Positions 38,473 through 45,076 of a stretch of DNA of 46,492 nt are shown here, piece by piece. Under the pieces are notes generated by a model. The model did no database searches. It was not told where the DNA came from and was given only the letters and a program-made list of their open reading frames with translations. Source of the stretch: a virus; IMG/VR virus record IMGVR_UViG_3300049216_000331, positions 1 through 46,492 of that record; one strand, written 5' to 3'. Each line of letters starts with the position of its first letter. Position 1 is the first letter of the stretch. The position numbers and the translations under genes are program-made.

Positions 38473-38698
38473 TCCCAACCTCACGTTCAACGAGCAACTC
38501 GCCAAGGATTTCGCCGAAGCGATCGACGGCAACAACCAGGTCAACGTCTACATCCCCGGCGCAACGCTCATCGGAGCGCCGATCGAGATCGACGACTACA
38601 AGCTCGTCATCGGCATTTCGGGCGGCATGCGCGGCGGCGTGACGCGTCACGTGATCGACATCGAAGCGGTCAACGCATACACGATCAACGCCCAATGA
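38465..38698 (+). CDS. small hypothetical protein
   Basis: 77 residues from ATG 38465. NQVNVYIPGATLIGAPIEID followed by DYKLVIGISGG is beta-rich with the V-x-G-x(n)-D/E spacing of small barrel folds; an Sm/SH3-like barrel is only a guess. Lies between helicase (8-base overlap) and UDG-polymerase (4-base overlap). Function unknown. Confidence 0.65.
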   Translation: MANPNLTFNEQLAKDFAEAIDGNNQVNVYIPGATLIGAPIEIDDYKLVIGISGGMRGGVTRHVIDIEAVNAYTINAQ

Positions 38699-41091
38699 AC
38701 GAAGCCGATGCCGCATGCACCGCATGCGATCTTTGGCGGACGGCAAACCGGCAGCTCTTCATCGGCTCGGGGCCAACCGACGCGCAAATCATGCTCGTGG
38801 GCGAGGCTCCCGGGCGCGAGGAGGATGCCTCCGGTATCCCGTTCGTCGGCGAGTCGGGTCAACTACTCGACAAGATGCTCAGTCTCATCGACCTCCCGCG
38901 CGATACCGTGTACGTGACGAACGCGGTCAAGTGCCGTCCGCCCAAGAACCGCAAGCCGACGGGTAAAGAGATCAACGCCTGTCGGCCGCACCTCATCGTC
39001 GAGCTCCAGAACGTGAAGCCCGAGCTCGTCATCGCGCTCGGAAACGAACCGCTCAAGAGCCTCACCGGCAAGAGCGGCATCACGGCGTTCCGCGGTCAGG
39101 CGCAAGAGCTCCACAAGTCGATCGCGCTCGAACCGCGCCCGATCGTCATGCCGACGTTCCATCCGGCCTACGCGCTGCGCGAGCCGGTGCATGAGAACGA
39201 GATCATGCAGGACATCACGACGGCGAAGCGCCCGCTCGCGGGGGGCTTTGAGAGCACCGTGATCGAGTGGCTCCTGTTCGACTCCGCCGAGTGCGTCGTG
39301 CCGAAGAACCTCGGCATTTGGGCCGTCGACATCGAGACGAACGCGCGCGACCTCACCGATCCTGAGCTCGCCGTTCGCTTCTTCGGCATCGACGACGGCG
39401 AGTGCGTGTACGTCGTCATGCCCCACCAATTCCAAGCCGCGTTCGAGATGATGGCGGCGCATCAAAACTTCGTCGGGCACAACGCGATCTCGTTTGATCG
39501 CGCGGTGCTGCTCGAGCGGCACGCGATCGAGTTCTCGTTCCATGACACGCAGCTCCTCGCGCATCTGGTCGACGAGGAGCAGCCGCTCAAGCTCCAGGAC
39601 CTTGTGGTAAAGTACCTCGGCGTCGCTCCTTGGAAGGACGACTTCGACGTTCACTTTTGGCGCCGCGGCCCCGAGAACAAGGACGAGTGGCAGGCGGCGT
39701 TCGAGTACCTCGCGCGCGATTGCCGCTACACCCGCCTGCTCTTCCCGGTGCTCTGGGAGCTCGCGACGCCAGCCGAGCAGCGGCTCTACCTCGAGCACAA
39801 CCTCCCGTGTGCGCGCGCTCTCTCGAAGATCGAGCGCAACGGCATGTTCATTTCGATCCCGAACATCGACAAGGCGATCAACGAAACGGAGCTCGAGCAG
39901 CGTGTCACGCTCCTCATGCTCAAGCAGCTCGCGGGGCCGGAGTTCAATCCGGCATCGCACCCGCAGGTGCGCGAGCTGCTCTTCTCCGATCTCATGCTGC
40001 CCGTGCAGGGCAAGACCAAAGCCGAGGCTGCGTCGACCGACGAGGAGGCGCTCAAGAAGATTCGGGCGCTCGGCCTCGGCGGCAACGTCATCCCCTCGCT
40101 GCTTGAGTACCGCGAGAACTCGAAGCTCCTTGGCACGTACCTTCGGCCGTGGCGCGAGCGCGCGACGAGGGGCTACGAGGACAAGAAGGGGATCTTCCAC
40201 CCCAACTTCACGCCTCCGTACATCTTCCCGCGCTACTCGTTCACCGCCACCGTCACCGGCCGAACGTCGTCGTTCGACCCCAACGCCCAGAACGTGCCGC
40301 GAGATCCACGCGTGCGCTCGATGGTCGCCGCCCCACCCGGATACGTGCTCATGGAAGCGGACGCATCGCAGCTCGAGCTTCGCATGGCGGCCGAGCTCAT
40401 GGGGCCGGGCACGGCACTCTTCAACGAGTACCTCAAGCCGAACCCCGACGTTCACATGACGATGGCGATGCGCCTCACCGGCAAGAACGATCCCTCGATG
40501 GTGAGCAAAGAAGAGCGCTCGCGCGCGAAGCCGCCAAACTTCGCGTATCTCTACTATGCCGATTGGCAGACCTACCAACGTATCGCGCTCACCGACTACG
40601 ATCTCGTTGTGAGCAAAGCCGAAGCGCGTTTCGCGCAGGATGCGTTCATGCTTTGGCAACCGCAGGGGTGGTGGGACCGCACCGAAGAGGAGCTCAAGGC
40701 GACGGGCAAGGTCACGTCCATCTTCGGGCGCTCACGCCGCCTGCCGAACATTCGATCGCGCGACACGTACGCGCGGCTCGAAGCGAAGCGTCAAGGGATC
40801 AACTTTTCCGACCAGAGCGCGTCGGCCGATCTCGTCATGCTCTGGGTGCAGACGACGATCAACCGCGGCTTCCACGTTTGCGGGTTCATCCACGACGCGA
40901 TGCACCTGCTCGTCCCCGACGACGACGCGGCGATCGCGAACACCGCGGCGTGGCTTCGCTACGATTTTGCCGTAACGGTGCCCCAACTCGTCGAGTCGAT
41001 GTTCGGGTATCGCTTCCGCCTGCCACTCGTTGCCGACGTGAAAGCCGGGCGTCATTGGGGCGACGAGTCGCGCTCGCCGGTTCCCTACTAG
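38695..41091 (+). CDS. uracil-DNA glycosylase fused to family A DNA polymerase
   Basis: 798 residues. UDG family-4-like domain (about 1-190): Fe-S cysteines C8, C11, C80, C96, GEAPG (36-40), HPAYA (156-160). 3'-5' exonuclease: D212/E214 (VDIETN), GHNAISFD (261-268), YLARD (338-342). Polymerase: motif A D556 in DASQLELR, motif B R608-K612-F616-Y620, motif C HD at 733-734. Motif C lacks the usual Glu (HDA), and NFG/YG are NFA/YY. A UDG fused to polymerase would remove uracil from or near the replicating strand. SPO1-like phages have a comparable fusion. Confidence 0.9.
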   Translation: MNEADAACTACDLWRTANRQLFIGSGPTDAQIMLVGEAPGREEDASGIPFVGESGQLLDKMLSLIDLPRDTVYVTNAVKCRPPKNRKPTGKEINACRPHLIVELQNVKPELVIALGNEPLKSLTGKSGITAFRGQAQELHKSIALEPRPIVMPTFHPAYALREPVHENEIMQDITTAKRPLAGGFESTVIEWLLFDSAECVVPKNLGIWAVDIETNARDLTDPELAVRFFGIDDGECVYVVMPHQFQAAFEMMAAHQNFVGHNAISFDRAVLLERHAIEFSFHDTQLLAHLVDEEQPLKLQDLVVKYLGVAPWKDDFDVHFWRRGPENKDEWQAAFEYLARDCRYTRLLFPVLWELATPAEQRLYLEHNLPCARALSKIERNGMFISIPNIDKAINETELEQRVTLLMLKQLAGPEFNPASHPQVRELLFSDLMLPVQGKTKAEAASTDEEALKKIRALGLGGNVIPSLLEYRENSKLLGTYLRPWRERATRGYEDKKGIFHPNFTPPYIFPRYSFTATVTGRTSSFDPNAQNVPRDPRVRSMVAAPPGYVLMEADASQLELRMAAELMGPGTALFNEYLKPNPDVHMTMAMRLTGKNDPSMVSKEERSRAKPPNFAYLYYADWQTYQRIALTDYDLVVSKAEARFAQDAFMLWQPQGWWDRTEEELKATGKVTSIFGRSRRLPNIRSRDTYARLEAKRQGINFSDQSASADLVMLWVQTTINRGFHVCGFIHDAMHLLVPDDDAAIANTAAWLRYDFAVTVPQLVESMFGYRFRLPLVADVKAGRHWGDESRSPVPY

Positions 41092-41292
41092 TCATATACC
41101 GGAAGTGATATACCAGAAGTTCTTCGGCTCATCGCGCGTGGCGGGGCACTATCACGTGACGCCGCGCGGCCGATGGATCGGCGTTGCCGGTCGTGGCCCG
41201 TGCCGTCGGCGTGGTGCATGCGGCGCGCGCGGACATTTCCCAACCAACTATCGCTTGACTTAGAGGGTGAAAATGGGGTACAAATGGGTCCT
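41092..41292 (+). promoter_or_regulatory. intergenic control region with direct repeat and promoter
   Basis: ATATACCGGAAGT (41094-41106) and ATATACCAGAAGT (41108-41120) form a near-perfect 13-bp direct repeat with 14-base period. A promoter TTGACT (41255-41260), 18 bases, TACAAA (41279-41284) lies at the right end; transcription would start near 41291-41293, at the ATG of the nuclease gene. No other gene is seen in these 200 bases. Confidence 0.55.
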
Positions 41293-42387
41293 ATGAGTGA
41301 TGTAGTGGAACCCGTCGCTCTCGCGGAAGCCGTCACCGAGGGACTCGCGCCCCACGTTGAAGCGCCCGAGATCATCCCGACGAGCATGAGTGCGCTCGGC
41401 ACGTTCCAACGGTGCCGTCGGCAGTTCATGTACCAGGAGGTCCGCGGCTGGATGCCGCGCACGGCGTCGCGCGCGATGGTGATCGGCACGGCGTATCACG
41501 CGGCGCTCGCCGCGGGCTACCGCGCCGTGCAACAGTACGACGCGTGGTATCGGGGCGATGCCCAGAACGGCACGTGGAGTGCCGACGATCGCGCCGCGGC
41601 GTTCATGGAGCACGCACTCAAAGAAGTGCGCAGCGTCGATGTTGACCGCGACGGCAAGAAGCTCGGGCTCACCGACGACGATCGCGATCTGCTCGAGGAC
41701 ATGGTGAAGTATTGGTTCGAGCAGATGGGCCGTCTCGATCTCGACAACATCGACGATGTGATCGCGGTCGAAGAGCCCGTCTACATCCAGATCGGCGCCT
41801 ACCTCATTCGCAACACGCTCGATCTCGTCGTGAAGTACCGTGATCAAGATCAACCGGCGATCGAGGACCACAAGACGGGCGATCCCGACAACACGAAAGA
41901 GTTCCTCGGGCTCGACTTCCAGACGCGCTCCTACTACGTCGCGGCGCGCGGGCGTTGGGGCAAGGTGCTCCAATTCCAGCATACGTTCGTCGAGCGCGAC
42001 GTGCCGCCGGGGTTCGGGCATCGTCCGCTCACGACCGACACCGGCAAGACCCGTAGCCCCGCGGTGCTCGCCTCGATGCAGAAGCCCGAGAAGTACGTGC
42101 AGCGCACGTGGACGACGCTCAACGATGAATCGCTCGATGCGTTCACAGGCGAGCTCGTCGACTTGGTGCTCGAGATCGACCATGCGAAGGCGACGAATCG
42201 CTGGACGCGCACACCGATCAAAGTCGGTCCGTTCGCGTGCGCCCATTGTCCGTACTTCGCGCCCTGTCAAGCGGAGCTTGCGGGCAAGGAAGTCGGCGAG
42301 GGCGCCGCGGCCATGATGTATATTCTCAAGTCCTCGCCCGAGTGGGCCGACATCGAGAGCGGCAAGACCGCATTGGAGATCAAGTGA
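41293..42387 (+). CDS. Cas4/RecB-like exonuclease (PD-(D/E)XK)
   Basis: 364 residues if ATG 41293 is used (MSDVVEPVALAEAV); ATG 41284 adds three residues. TSMSALGTFQRCRRQFMYQE carries the first Fe-S Cys and the N-terminal signature of Cas4/AddB-type nucleases. LDLVVKYRDQDQPAIEDHKT supplies the PD-(D/E)XK acidic/Lys residues. The C-terminal CAHCPYFAPC gives three Cys for a 4Fe-4S cluster. It probably makes single-stranded ends for the neighbouring annealing/ATPase proteins. It overlaps the next ORF by a base. Confidence 0.85.
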   Translation: MSDVVEPVALAEAVTEGLAPHVEAPEIIPTSMSALGTFQRCRRQFMYQEVRGWMPRTASRAMVIGTAYHAALAAGYRAVQQYDAWYRGDAQNGTWSADDRAAAFMEHALKEVRSVDVDRDGKKLGLTDDDRDLLEDMVKYWFEQMGRLDLDNIDDVIAVEEPVYIQIGAYLIRNTLDLVVKYRDQDQPAIEDHKTGDPDNTKEFLGLDFQTRSYYVAARGRWGKVLQFQHTFVERDVPPGFGHRPLTTDTGKTRSPAVLASMQKPEKYVQRTWTTLNDESLDAFTGELVDLVLEIDHAKATNRWTRTPIKVGPFACAHCPYFAPCQAELAGKEVGEGAAAMMYILKSSPEWADIESGKTALEIK

Positions 42388-42497
42388 TGCAGGCTGCAAC
42401 GCTAGCGTATCTCAACAACGAGATCGACGCCGCGCGCGCAAAGTTTCCCGAGCCGACAGGGCTCACGGCCGCGCTCTTCGAGGAGTTCGGTGAGTGA
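42387..42497 (+). CDS. small helical protein
   Basis: 36 residues, MQAATLAYLNNEIDAARAKF then PEPTGLTAALFEEFGE. Starts in a TGATG overlap with the nuclease stop and ends in a GTGA overlap with the ATPase start. Helical and acidic; translational coupling is the best support. It could be a partner or a remnant of the ATPase N-terminus. Confidence 0.55.
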   Translation: MQAATLAYLNNEIDAARAKFPEPTGLTAALFEEFGE

Positions 42498-43273
42498 TCA
42501 TCTGTCATATCGACTGCGACGTGAGCGGCTCGACCTCGATCGCGCACCTCGTTCGCTCGGGCCACGTGCTCACGTTTCGCTGCCCGACGTTCAAGGACGC
42601 CGAGGGCGTCATGTGGGGTTTGCACCGCGGCGCGATCAAGGCCGATCTCGTTGTGCTCGACACGCTCACCGCGCTTGCGGGCGTCGCGCGTCAGGATCTC
42701 GTCATGGAGCCCTCGCAGACCAAGCAGTTCCCGATTTGGGACAACCGTGAAAAGCTCGTCGCCGATCGGCAGCACTACTACAAAACGGCCGACGTGATCA
42801 ACCGCCTCCTGCGTCCGCTGCGCGAGTTGCCGATGCCGAGCGTGTTCATCGCGCATGAGCGATCGACGCGCGGGATGGAGAGCCGGGTCGATCCGCTTTC
42901 GGGCACCGACAAGTTCATCCCGAACCTCCAGCGCGAGATCAACGACAACATTTTCTCTTTCGCCGACGGGATCGTTCGTTTGTTTCCTTCGTCGACACCG
43001 TTCGAGTGGCAGGGCGCGCACGTGCCGACCGGCACGCGCATCCTGCTCCTCTCCGCCACGTCCGACTCGGCTGCGGGCGTGCGCGTACCGGCGGACAAAC
43101 CGCCAGCCCCGCCGATCATGGTCGTTCCCGAAAACGACCCGTACTCGTTCGTCCGGTTCATCGAAGCCGTCGGCGGCGAGATTCCTCACAACCTCGTTGT
43201 GTACGGCCCCCCCAAGATCGGCAAGACCACTTGGGTCGCTGGCGCGGCGTATCTCACAGGAGTCGAACGCTAA
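42494..43273 (+). CDS. RecA/Sak4-like ATPase with circularly permuted order
   Basis: 259 residues from GTG 42494 (GTGA overlap). Begins with VIICHIDCDVSGSTS, which in Sak4/AAA_24-type ATPases normally follows the Walker A helix. Walker B LVVLD ends at D56, VFIAHERS (117-124) matches the sensor strand, and RILLLS comes later. The Walker A GPPKIGKTT lies only at residues 238-246, then a helix and stop at residue 259. The N-terminal linker-like VPENDPYSFVRFIEAVGG precedes that P-loop. So the fold elements are complete but rotated. Neighbours (Cas4-like nuclease, DUF669-like protein) form the usual phage recombination module. Confidence 0.8.
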   Translation: MIICHIDCDVSGSTSIAHLVRSGHVLTFRCPTFKDAEGVMWGLHRGAIKADLVVLDTLTALAGVARQDLVMEPSQTKQFPIWDNREKLVADRQHYYKTADVINRLLRPLRELPMPSVFIAHERSTRGMESRVDPLSGTDKFIPNLQREINDNIFSFADGIVRLFPSSTPFEWQGAHVPTGTRILLLSATSDSAAGVRVPADKPPAPPIMVVPENDPYSFVRFIEAVGGEIPHNLVVYGPPKIGKTTWVAGAAYLTGVER

Positions 43274-43275
43274 TC

Positions 43276-44124
43276 ATGTCGCAGCAACTCTCGCCCGACG
43301 GGCGCTTTTCGTGGGACGGAACCCAATGGGTGCCGGTCGCCGCGGCTCCCCCGCCACCCCCACCGCCGCCTGCGGCGTACGCCCCGCCCGCACCCCCCGC
43401 CTACGTCGCACCGGTTCCTCCCGCTGCCCCCGCGTATGCGCCGCCGCCGGGCTATCCCTCGGCTCCGCCTGGAGTCCCGACGGGAGCGTACGGTGCGCAA
43501 GCGCCCGCGTATGCGCCGCCCGCCGCACCCGGCTACGGAGCCGCGTCCAGCGACGTGTCGTTCGGCGAGGTCGCCTGGAATAGCGGCATCCCGCTCGGCA
43601 CCGGCTACATCATCCGCATCGACGACATCGAGGCGGGCAAGTCGCAGGCCGCCAACGACAAGCTCGTTTTCACGGGGCAGACGCTCCAACCGAACGGGCA
43701 CATCGCCGCGGCCTTCAAGGCCGTCTGGTCCTACACGCTCACCGAGAAGGCCATCGGCAAGCTCGGCCGCGATATGGTCGCGCTCGGCCTCGGGGCAAAG
43801 CGGTATCCGCGCGACGTGAACGCGCTCGCGCAGGCGCTTCTCGCCGATCTGCGCGGCATGGTCGTGATCGTCGATTCGGTCGAGTCCAAGAGCGGGGATC
43901 TGCCCAACACGAACGTCGTCGGCAAGTACACGGGATCGCCCTCACCGGCTCCCGCGGCTGCGCCCTCGCCGTTCCCGCCGCAAGCCCCCGCTCCGGTTGC
44001 GTCTGCGGCCCCCGCGTACGCGGCGCAACCGATGCCTCCGGTGTCTTTCCCCCCGGCACCGCCTCCGGGCGCTCCTGGGGCTCCGAGCGGCCTTCTTCCG
44101 CCGCCCCCGGCCCCGAGCGTCTAG
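43276..44124 (+). CDS. DUF669-like putative ssDNA-binding protein
   Basis: 282 residues from ATG 43276, 2 bases after the ATPase stop. Starts with SPDGRFSWDGTQWVPV, then a Pro/Ala-rich linker, a folded core (residues about 95-215; GTGYIIRIDDIEAGKSQAAN, LVFTGQTLQPNGHIAAAFKA) with ESKSGDLPNTNVVGKY, and a Pro-rich tail. The core resembles DUF669 proteins found next to Sak4 ATPases, thought to bind single-stranded DNA (family assignment by eye). Acts in recombination/replication with its neighbours. Confidence 0.6.
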   Translation: MSQQLSPDGRFSWDGTQWVPVAAAPPPPPPPPAAYAPPAPPAYVAPVPPAAPAYAPPPGYPSAPPGVPTGAYGAQAPAYAPPAAPGYGAASSDVSFGEVAWNSGIPLGTGYIIRIDDIEAGKSQAANDKLVFTGQTLQPNGHIAAAFKAVWSYTLTEKAIGKLGRDMVALGLGAKRYPRDVNALAQALLADLRGMVVIVDSVESKSGDLPNTNVVGKYTGSPSPAPAAAPSPFPPQAPAPVASAAPAYAAQPMPPVSFPPAPPPGAPGAPSGLLPPPPAPSV

Positions 44125-44358: not shown

Positions 44359-44570
44359 GCATGAAAACACACATCGTCAATTTCTGGGTGCAGCGTATTG
44401 ATCGCGCGGCCTATCGCGCGTGGGCGAAGGACCTGGCGATGACGCCCGAGCAGCAGCGCGCGTTTGCGTCTGCTTCTTCCCGCGTTCGCCGCGCAGCGCG
44501 CGAGTTAGCTGCGGCCAAAAAAGAACAGATCAAAATTGCGCAGCAATTCCCTACCACGCAGATCCGATGA
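44355..44570 (+). CDS. small helical protein
   Basis: 71 residues from GTG 44355, or 69 from ATG 44361 (AGGA about 11 bases before). MSMKTHIVNFWVQRIDRAAY and a basic helix-rich region (SSRVRRAARELAAAKKEQIK). The stop overlaps the methyltransferase ATG. Probably binds nucleic acid; not recognised. Confidence 0.55.
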   Translation: MSMKTHIVNFWVQRIDRAAYRAWAKDLAMTPEQQRAFASASSRVRRAARELAAAKKEQIKIAQQFPTTQIR

Positions 44571-45076
44571 TGGCACTTCACGAACAGAGCGTCGGAGCAA
44601 CCGACGAGTGGTACACGCCCGCGCATGTCTTTGCGGCTCTCGATTGCGTGTTCGACGTAGACGTTGCCGCAGCGCGCTACCTCGATCGACGGATGGGGAA
44701 TGTTCCCGCGCGCGCTCACATCTTCGAGGAAAGTCTTGTGCGCGATTGGGGCGGTGCTTTCGTTTGGATGAACCCGCCGTTCGGCGGGCGCAACGGGCTC
44801 GTTCCGTGGCGCGAGAAGTTCTTCGTGAACGGCAACGGTATCGCGCTCGTTCCCGATCGCACGTCGGCGCCGTGGTTTCAGCAATTCGCACCGCGCGCAG
44901 ATCTCATGCTCTTCGTAACGCCCAAGCTCCAATTTATCAACGTTCACGGCAAACCGGGCAGATCGCCCGCGCAGGGTACGTGCCTCCTCGCCAAGAGAGA
45001 GAGAGGCGTTTCCGCTCTGCGCCGAGCTGCGCGCAGCGGCTTGGTTTTTTTCGCCCGACCGGAGTCGGCGACGTGA
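44567..45076 (+). CDS. dam: DNA N6-adenine methyltransferase (Dam phage family)
   Basis: 169 residues. DEWYTP at residues 13-18, CVFDVDVAAA (SAM-binding region), NPPF in FVWMNPPFGGRNG (catalytic DPPY-type motif), and FFARPE near the C-terminus, in the order of the phage Dam family (PF05869). It transfers a methyl group to adenine, usually in GATC. It may protect phage DNA or mark replication origins. GATC sites are abundant by eye in this window. The stop overlaps the next gene. Confidence 0.88.
   Translation: MMALHEQSVGATDEWYTPAHVFAALDCVFDVDVAAARYLDRRMGNVPARAHIFEESLVRDWGGAFVWMNPPFGGRNGLVPWREKFFVNGNGIALVPDRTSAPWFQQFAPRADLMLFVTPKLQFINVHGKPGRSPAQGTCLLAKRERGVSALRRAARSGLVFFARPESAT

Follow-up and report, generated by a model that had tools for sequence, protein, structure and literature searches.

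The window, by which we mean the whole 46,492-nucleotide stretch analysed here (virus record IMGVR_UViG_3300049216_000331, positions 1 to 46,492), contains a phage recombination module downstream of a DNA polymerase gene. The module comprises a Cas4-like exonuclease gene, a short ORF, the gene described below and a gene where ssb is usually found (Table 1). The polymerase has a 3'-5' exonuclease; its best phage homologues match at about 31%, and at least 80% of it is covered in 113 phage records. By eye, the short ORF resembled the beginning of a gene of the MazG type, but it gave no significant match in family searches. The protein encoded in the ssb position has long Pro/Ala-rich arms that flank a core of ~130 amino acids, and a profile comparison of this protein with SSB was not significant, nor did it match any family. 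A DNA methyltransferase gene (phrog_111) lies downstream of the recombination genes at 44420-45076.

Table 1. Positions of the genes, signals and predicted fold elements in the window.
Feature	Residues	Positions	Strand	Basis or remark
Family A DNA polymerase with fused uracil-DNA glycosylase domain		38695..41091	+	profile matches
PD-(D/E)XK Cas4-like exonuclease		41173..42387	+	profile matches
36-aa ORF ending EEFGE		42387..42497	+	overlaps the exonuclease and permuted genes
Shine-Dalgarno GAGGAG		42480..42485	+	sequence; spacing of 8 nt to GTG
Circularly permuted Sak4-like ATPase gene		42494..43273	+	259 aa
Strand 2 of RecA-like core	3-7	42500..42514	+	canonically after the P-loop helix, here at the N-terminal end
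Walker B strand LVVLD	52-56	42647..42661	+	D56 at its end
Sensor strand VFIAHERS	117-124	42842..42865	+	
Canonical Sak4 C-terminal helix, YSFVRFIEAVGG region	214-228	43133..43177	+	joined directly to strand 1
Strand 1 and Walker A, NLVVYGPPKIGKTT	233-246	43190..43231	+	includes K244
P-loop helix	244-254	43223..43255	+	stop codon soon after
Shine-Dalgarno AGGAG of the following gene		43258..43262	+	sequence; within the 3' end of the permuted gene
Downstream gene in the usual ssb position		43276..44124	+	SSB-like by eye only

The ORF at 42494-43273 begins with a GTG at 42494 and ends with a TAA at 43271-43273, two bases upstream of the next ATG. Codon usage is in frame across the entire gene, including the part that encodes the C-terminal end, and matches the phage's own usage.

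The elements of the encoded protein follow one another in the order strand 2, Walker B, sensor strand, C-terminal helix, strand 1, Walker A, P-loop helix and stop. Walker A (GPPKIGKTT) occupies residues 238-246 and leaves 13 residues to the C-terminal end. The helix that closes canonical Sak4 proteins (NPTLQSFIDRIYG in a canonical example) is found internally as PENDPYSFVRFIEAVGG and is directly followed by strand 1 (EIPHNLVVYGPPKIGKTT; for a canonical strand 1, compare ELPHNQNILIYGEPGSGKT in the protein of locus L067). The two ends of the chain also fit together: when the C-terminal LTGVER is joined to the N-terminal (V)IICHID, the product resembles the continuous VSGYERVLIID of Curtobacterium phage Yappy. 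Of the canonical protein, nothing is absent except the N-terminal extension.

Profile searches assigned the protein to the Sak4 family in the same inverted order. The PHROG Sak4 profile phrog_124 (E 2e-15) and Pfam AAA_24 (28.6 bits against a cut-off of 27) each matched in two stretches, with the later part of the profiles matching the first ~210 residues and their beginning matching the P-loop at residues 233-249. The same profile searches identified AAA_24/Sak4 as the best match and returned no GTPase family, and a sequence search of the PDB returned matches only to P-loop segments of AAA+ proteins.

We searched virus contigs via the neighbouring DNA polymerase, which yielded 80 loci. The polymerase nearest to that of the window (39% identity) lies on L019, the 51.5 kb contig IMGVR_UViG_3300025505_000001, where the Sak4 gene (L019:6079-6855, 258 amino acids) has the same permuted order. 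The two Sak4 proteins share 25% identity and are collinear over residues 12-245, including Walker A (pairwise BLAST, E 4e-21). A six-frame search with AAA_24 matched profile positions 22-195 and then 2-22 in L019, although both permuted genes scored below the cut-off of that search. The L019 gene has its own ATG and Shine-Dalgarno sequence, and its stop codon overlaps the start of the following gene. The order polymerase, exonuclease, Sak4 is common to the window and L019 and is conserved more widely, including at loci with a canonical Sak4. Two small ORFs (75 and 59 amino acids) lie between the exonuclease and the permuted gene at L019:5659-6086 and have no visible likeness to the short ORF of the window. 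No second, canonical Sak4 was found in the window or L019 records, both of which are classed as linear and may be incomplete.

Rotating the sequences in silico restored the canonical match. With a profile built from 77 canonical Sak4s, the window protein scored 67.4 bits in its native order and 84.5 bits when rotated at residue 228, the peak of the scan, where it gave a single continuous match. The L019 protein rose from 31.1 to 55.4 bits when cut at residue 228, and two canonical control proteins scored best unrotated. When the permuted pair was compared with ten canonical Sak4s in hhalign (probability 99.1, E 1e-18), permuted residues 3-231 aligned with canonical residues 59-269 of 274, and the residues left over, 232-259, correspond to strand 1, Walker A and the P-loop helix. 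A test with a tandem profile was uninformative, with the joining columns appearing as long insertions. Taken together, hhalign, the rotation scan and the AAA_24 matches place every canonical fold segment in the protein once, in rotated order. These sequence comparisons confirm that ORF 42494-43273 encodes the elements of a Sak4-family ATPase in circularly permuted order, with a predicted RecA-like fold and predicted activity.

The permuted arrangement is rare. Walker A is on the N-terminal side in 168 of the 175 Sak4 ORFs from all loci (146 distinct sequences), and the only permuted proteins in the survey are that of the window and that of L019, which occurs four times (L019/L099/L100/L112). 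The L058 Sak4 has a degenerate P-loop. One further candidate, L165:5448-6242, was rejected as a permuted Sak4: it is truncated and lacks the P-loop entirely, through truncation or a frameshift in the contig. Alignments of L019 with proteins of Microbacterium phages Typher, Jera and Goodman seemed to run on into its C-terminal P-loop, yet those phage proteins are canonical. A single-query search of viral and genome contigs for close relatives of the window protein gave short matches to ordinary P-loops or none, and searches for further permuted members with the window/L019 pair gave L019 again, distant loci or none.

The window and L019 proteins are sisters in the Sak4 tree (support 98/85), placed among canonical Sak4s, and the polymerases of the two contigs are likewise sisters (support 100); the branches of both are long in both trees. 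The simplest reading is that the permutation arose once, in a common ancestor of the two phages. All of the cultured phages that are nearest by polymerase, among those examined, have a canonical Sak4.

An earlier note, made from the window's sequence, had proposed a permuted Sak4-type RecA-like ATPase within a phage recombination module, and this proposal is supported and now extends to a second, distant phage with the same order. Its reading that Walker B and the sensor strand precede Walker A agrees with both the translation and the inverted PHROG and Pfam matches, and the surface loop in which it placed the break is the one that leads from the P-loop helix to strand 2. The note had also reasoned that homologs with an N-terminal Walker A would speak against permutation; canonical proteins occupy the same position in more distant phages, but the nearest relative is permuted.

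We examined the residues expected to form the ATP site. All 130 canonical relatives have the Walker A lysine and the Walker B aspartate, and so do both permuted proteins; the window protein retains G238, G243, K244 and T245 of the Walker A GxxxxGKT, along with D56. This conservation of ATP-binding residues over the divergence between the window and L019 suggests that the ATP site is in use. Two other positions vary. The position after strand 2 that resembles the catalytic glutamate E96 of RecA is E or D in 128 of the 130 canonical relatives and E in L019, but V in the window, where D9 adjoins it. The sensor position, mostly Q or H in canonical relatives, is H in the window and G in L019. The earlier note's description of a complete ATP-binding domain thus stands for the fold elements and Walker A and B, but not for the RecA-E96-like position. 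Judging from these residues, hydrolysis may be weakened in either protein.

Binding and annealing of ssDNA by HK620 Sak4 depend on ATP and are stimulated by its SSB, and ssb adjoins up to 80% of sak4 genes (PMC5928155). From homology and the models, we consider it likely that the window protein is functional, annealing ssDNA in an ATP-dependent way despite its relocated termini. The substitutions, together with the long branches of both sequences, could instead point to a permuted and folded protein that binds ATP statically and serves as a regulatory or structural paralogue rather than as a normal hydrolysing annealase. We regard this as rather unlikely, given that both proteins retain K/T in Walker A and D in Walker B, that each is the sole Sak4 found in its record and sits in the usual recombination operon, that the lost residue differs between the two, and that the window has D9 beside its missing Glu.

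Structure prediction gave models of moderate confidence. AlphaFold2 models of the window and L019 proteins (pLDDT 71/72, pTM 0.72/0.73) both contained the core strands, the C-terminal strand at 233-238 and the P-loop helix, while the former C-terminal tail (about residues 138-210) was poorly modelled. The underlying alignments had 40 rows, mostly unpaired fragments of canonical relatives, with a few residues per core fragment misaligned; because canonical relatives entered as separate fragments, docking was not imposed by paired rows. To the extent that secondary structure and pTM can show, the models suggest with moderate confidence that the P-loop docks on the core. Order-dependent Foldseek searches returned phage RecA-like and Sak4 proteins, mostly over ~120-170 columns with TMq mostly up to about 0.4, and short spans are as expected for a permuted protein. 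One viral protein of 248 amino acids, A0A516LUR7 (BFVD), spanned the full length of both permuted models, unlike canonical Sak4s. Its TMq values against the two models were 0.50 and 0.44 with high rmsd, and it is a candidate third permuted member.

These models also bear on a domain-swapped arrangement, in which the hairpin of strand 1 and the P-loop would enter the sheet of a neighbouring subunit and the ATP site would exist only in the oligomer. In the permuted chain the P-loop element sits at the end, and its tether is the stretch that used to be the C-terminal tail; in the Rad51-like filaments of 52A Sak4, which is canonical, this same tail places K229, R231 and H232 of one protomer at the nucleotide of its neighbour (PMC11846896). 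The single-chain models nevertheless pair the P-loop strand within a single domain, and we judge such a swap improbable. An assembly chimera, which the earlier note had raised, or a recent functionless rearrangement scar might be suspected from the metagenomic origin, the ORF immediately upstream and a short ATCAT/TGT similarity between the two ends of the gene, but either is extremely unlikely because L019, a different contig whose Sak4 is only 25% identical, has the same permutation and synteny, and the ORF, codon usage and start and stop signals are intact and the catalytic residues retained over that divergence.

We therefore return to a permuted Sak4 annealing ATPase, in which strand 1 follows on from the old C-terminal helix and the loop that links the P-loop helix to strand 2 has become the site of the new termini, as the probable explanation of the sequence and modelling results. 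From homology and the moderate-confidence models, the chain would fold to an ordinary RecA-like core, with strand 1 and Walker A made last and inserting into the sheet beside Walker B. The protein would then bind ATP and, in an ATP-dependent manner, load and anneal ssDNA supplied by the adjacent Cas4-like exonuclease, with a single-strand binding protein assisting annealing. Such a gene most likely arose when, as the earlier note had suggested, a canonical Sak4 gene was duplicated in tandem and in frame, here once in the ancestor of both phages, after which the first copy would have lost its start and the second its end. We also considered, as an unlikely extension, that this is an established phage recombinase lineage in which the ATP loop is made last and the site can form only once translation has ended or by exchange of strands between subunits, which would alter filament assembly or escape from anti-recombinase defences.

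Permuted and canonical Sak4s at the same locus form a natural pair with which to probe how far RecA-core filament assembly depends on strand order, on folding during translation and on where the termini lie. The pair also bears on how recombination-rich phages remodel essential folds. As the six-frame AAA_24 search illustrates, rules based on motif order and cut-offs for whole domains can overlook permuted proteins.

The fold of RecA-type ATPases is among the most conserved in biology. Among 5.4 million openly available papers searched in full text, we found no published permuted RecA-like or Sak4 ATPase. The window protein is a Sak4 by descent, yet without the usual motif order. With the Sak4 family (phrog_124, AAA_24, HK620, 52A) it shares the RecA-core elements, Walker A and B and the sensor strand, a C-terminal tail with a conserved G-x-R and terminal helix, and placement between a Cas4-like exonuclease and a downstream gene. 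It differs in that Walker B precedes Walker A, the termini fall in the loop between helix 1 and strand 2, the old C-terminal helix is fused to strand 1, the N-terminal extension is absent and identity is below 30%. Its predicted folded core and Foldseek neighbourhood resemble those of RadA, RadB and Rad51, but those proteins have the sequential order, and the window protein is without an additional N-terminal domain.

The closest precedent for the rearrangement itself is provided by circularly permuted P-loop GTPases, in which motifs run G4-G5-G1-G2-G3 (YlqF/YqeH/YjeQ) or G3-G4-G5-G1-G2 (cpRAS) (PMC2430557). There, as in the window protein, a natural permutation of a P-loop NTPase shifts Walker A (G1) toward the C-terminus. 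Unlike those GTPases, the window protein is an ASCE/RecA-type ATPase that is cut right after the P-loop helix, leaving Walker A as the final motif.
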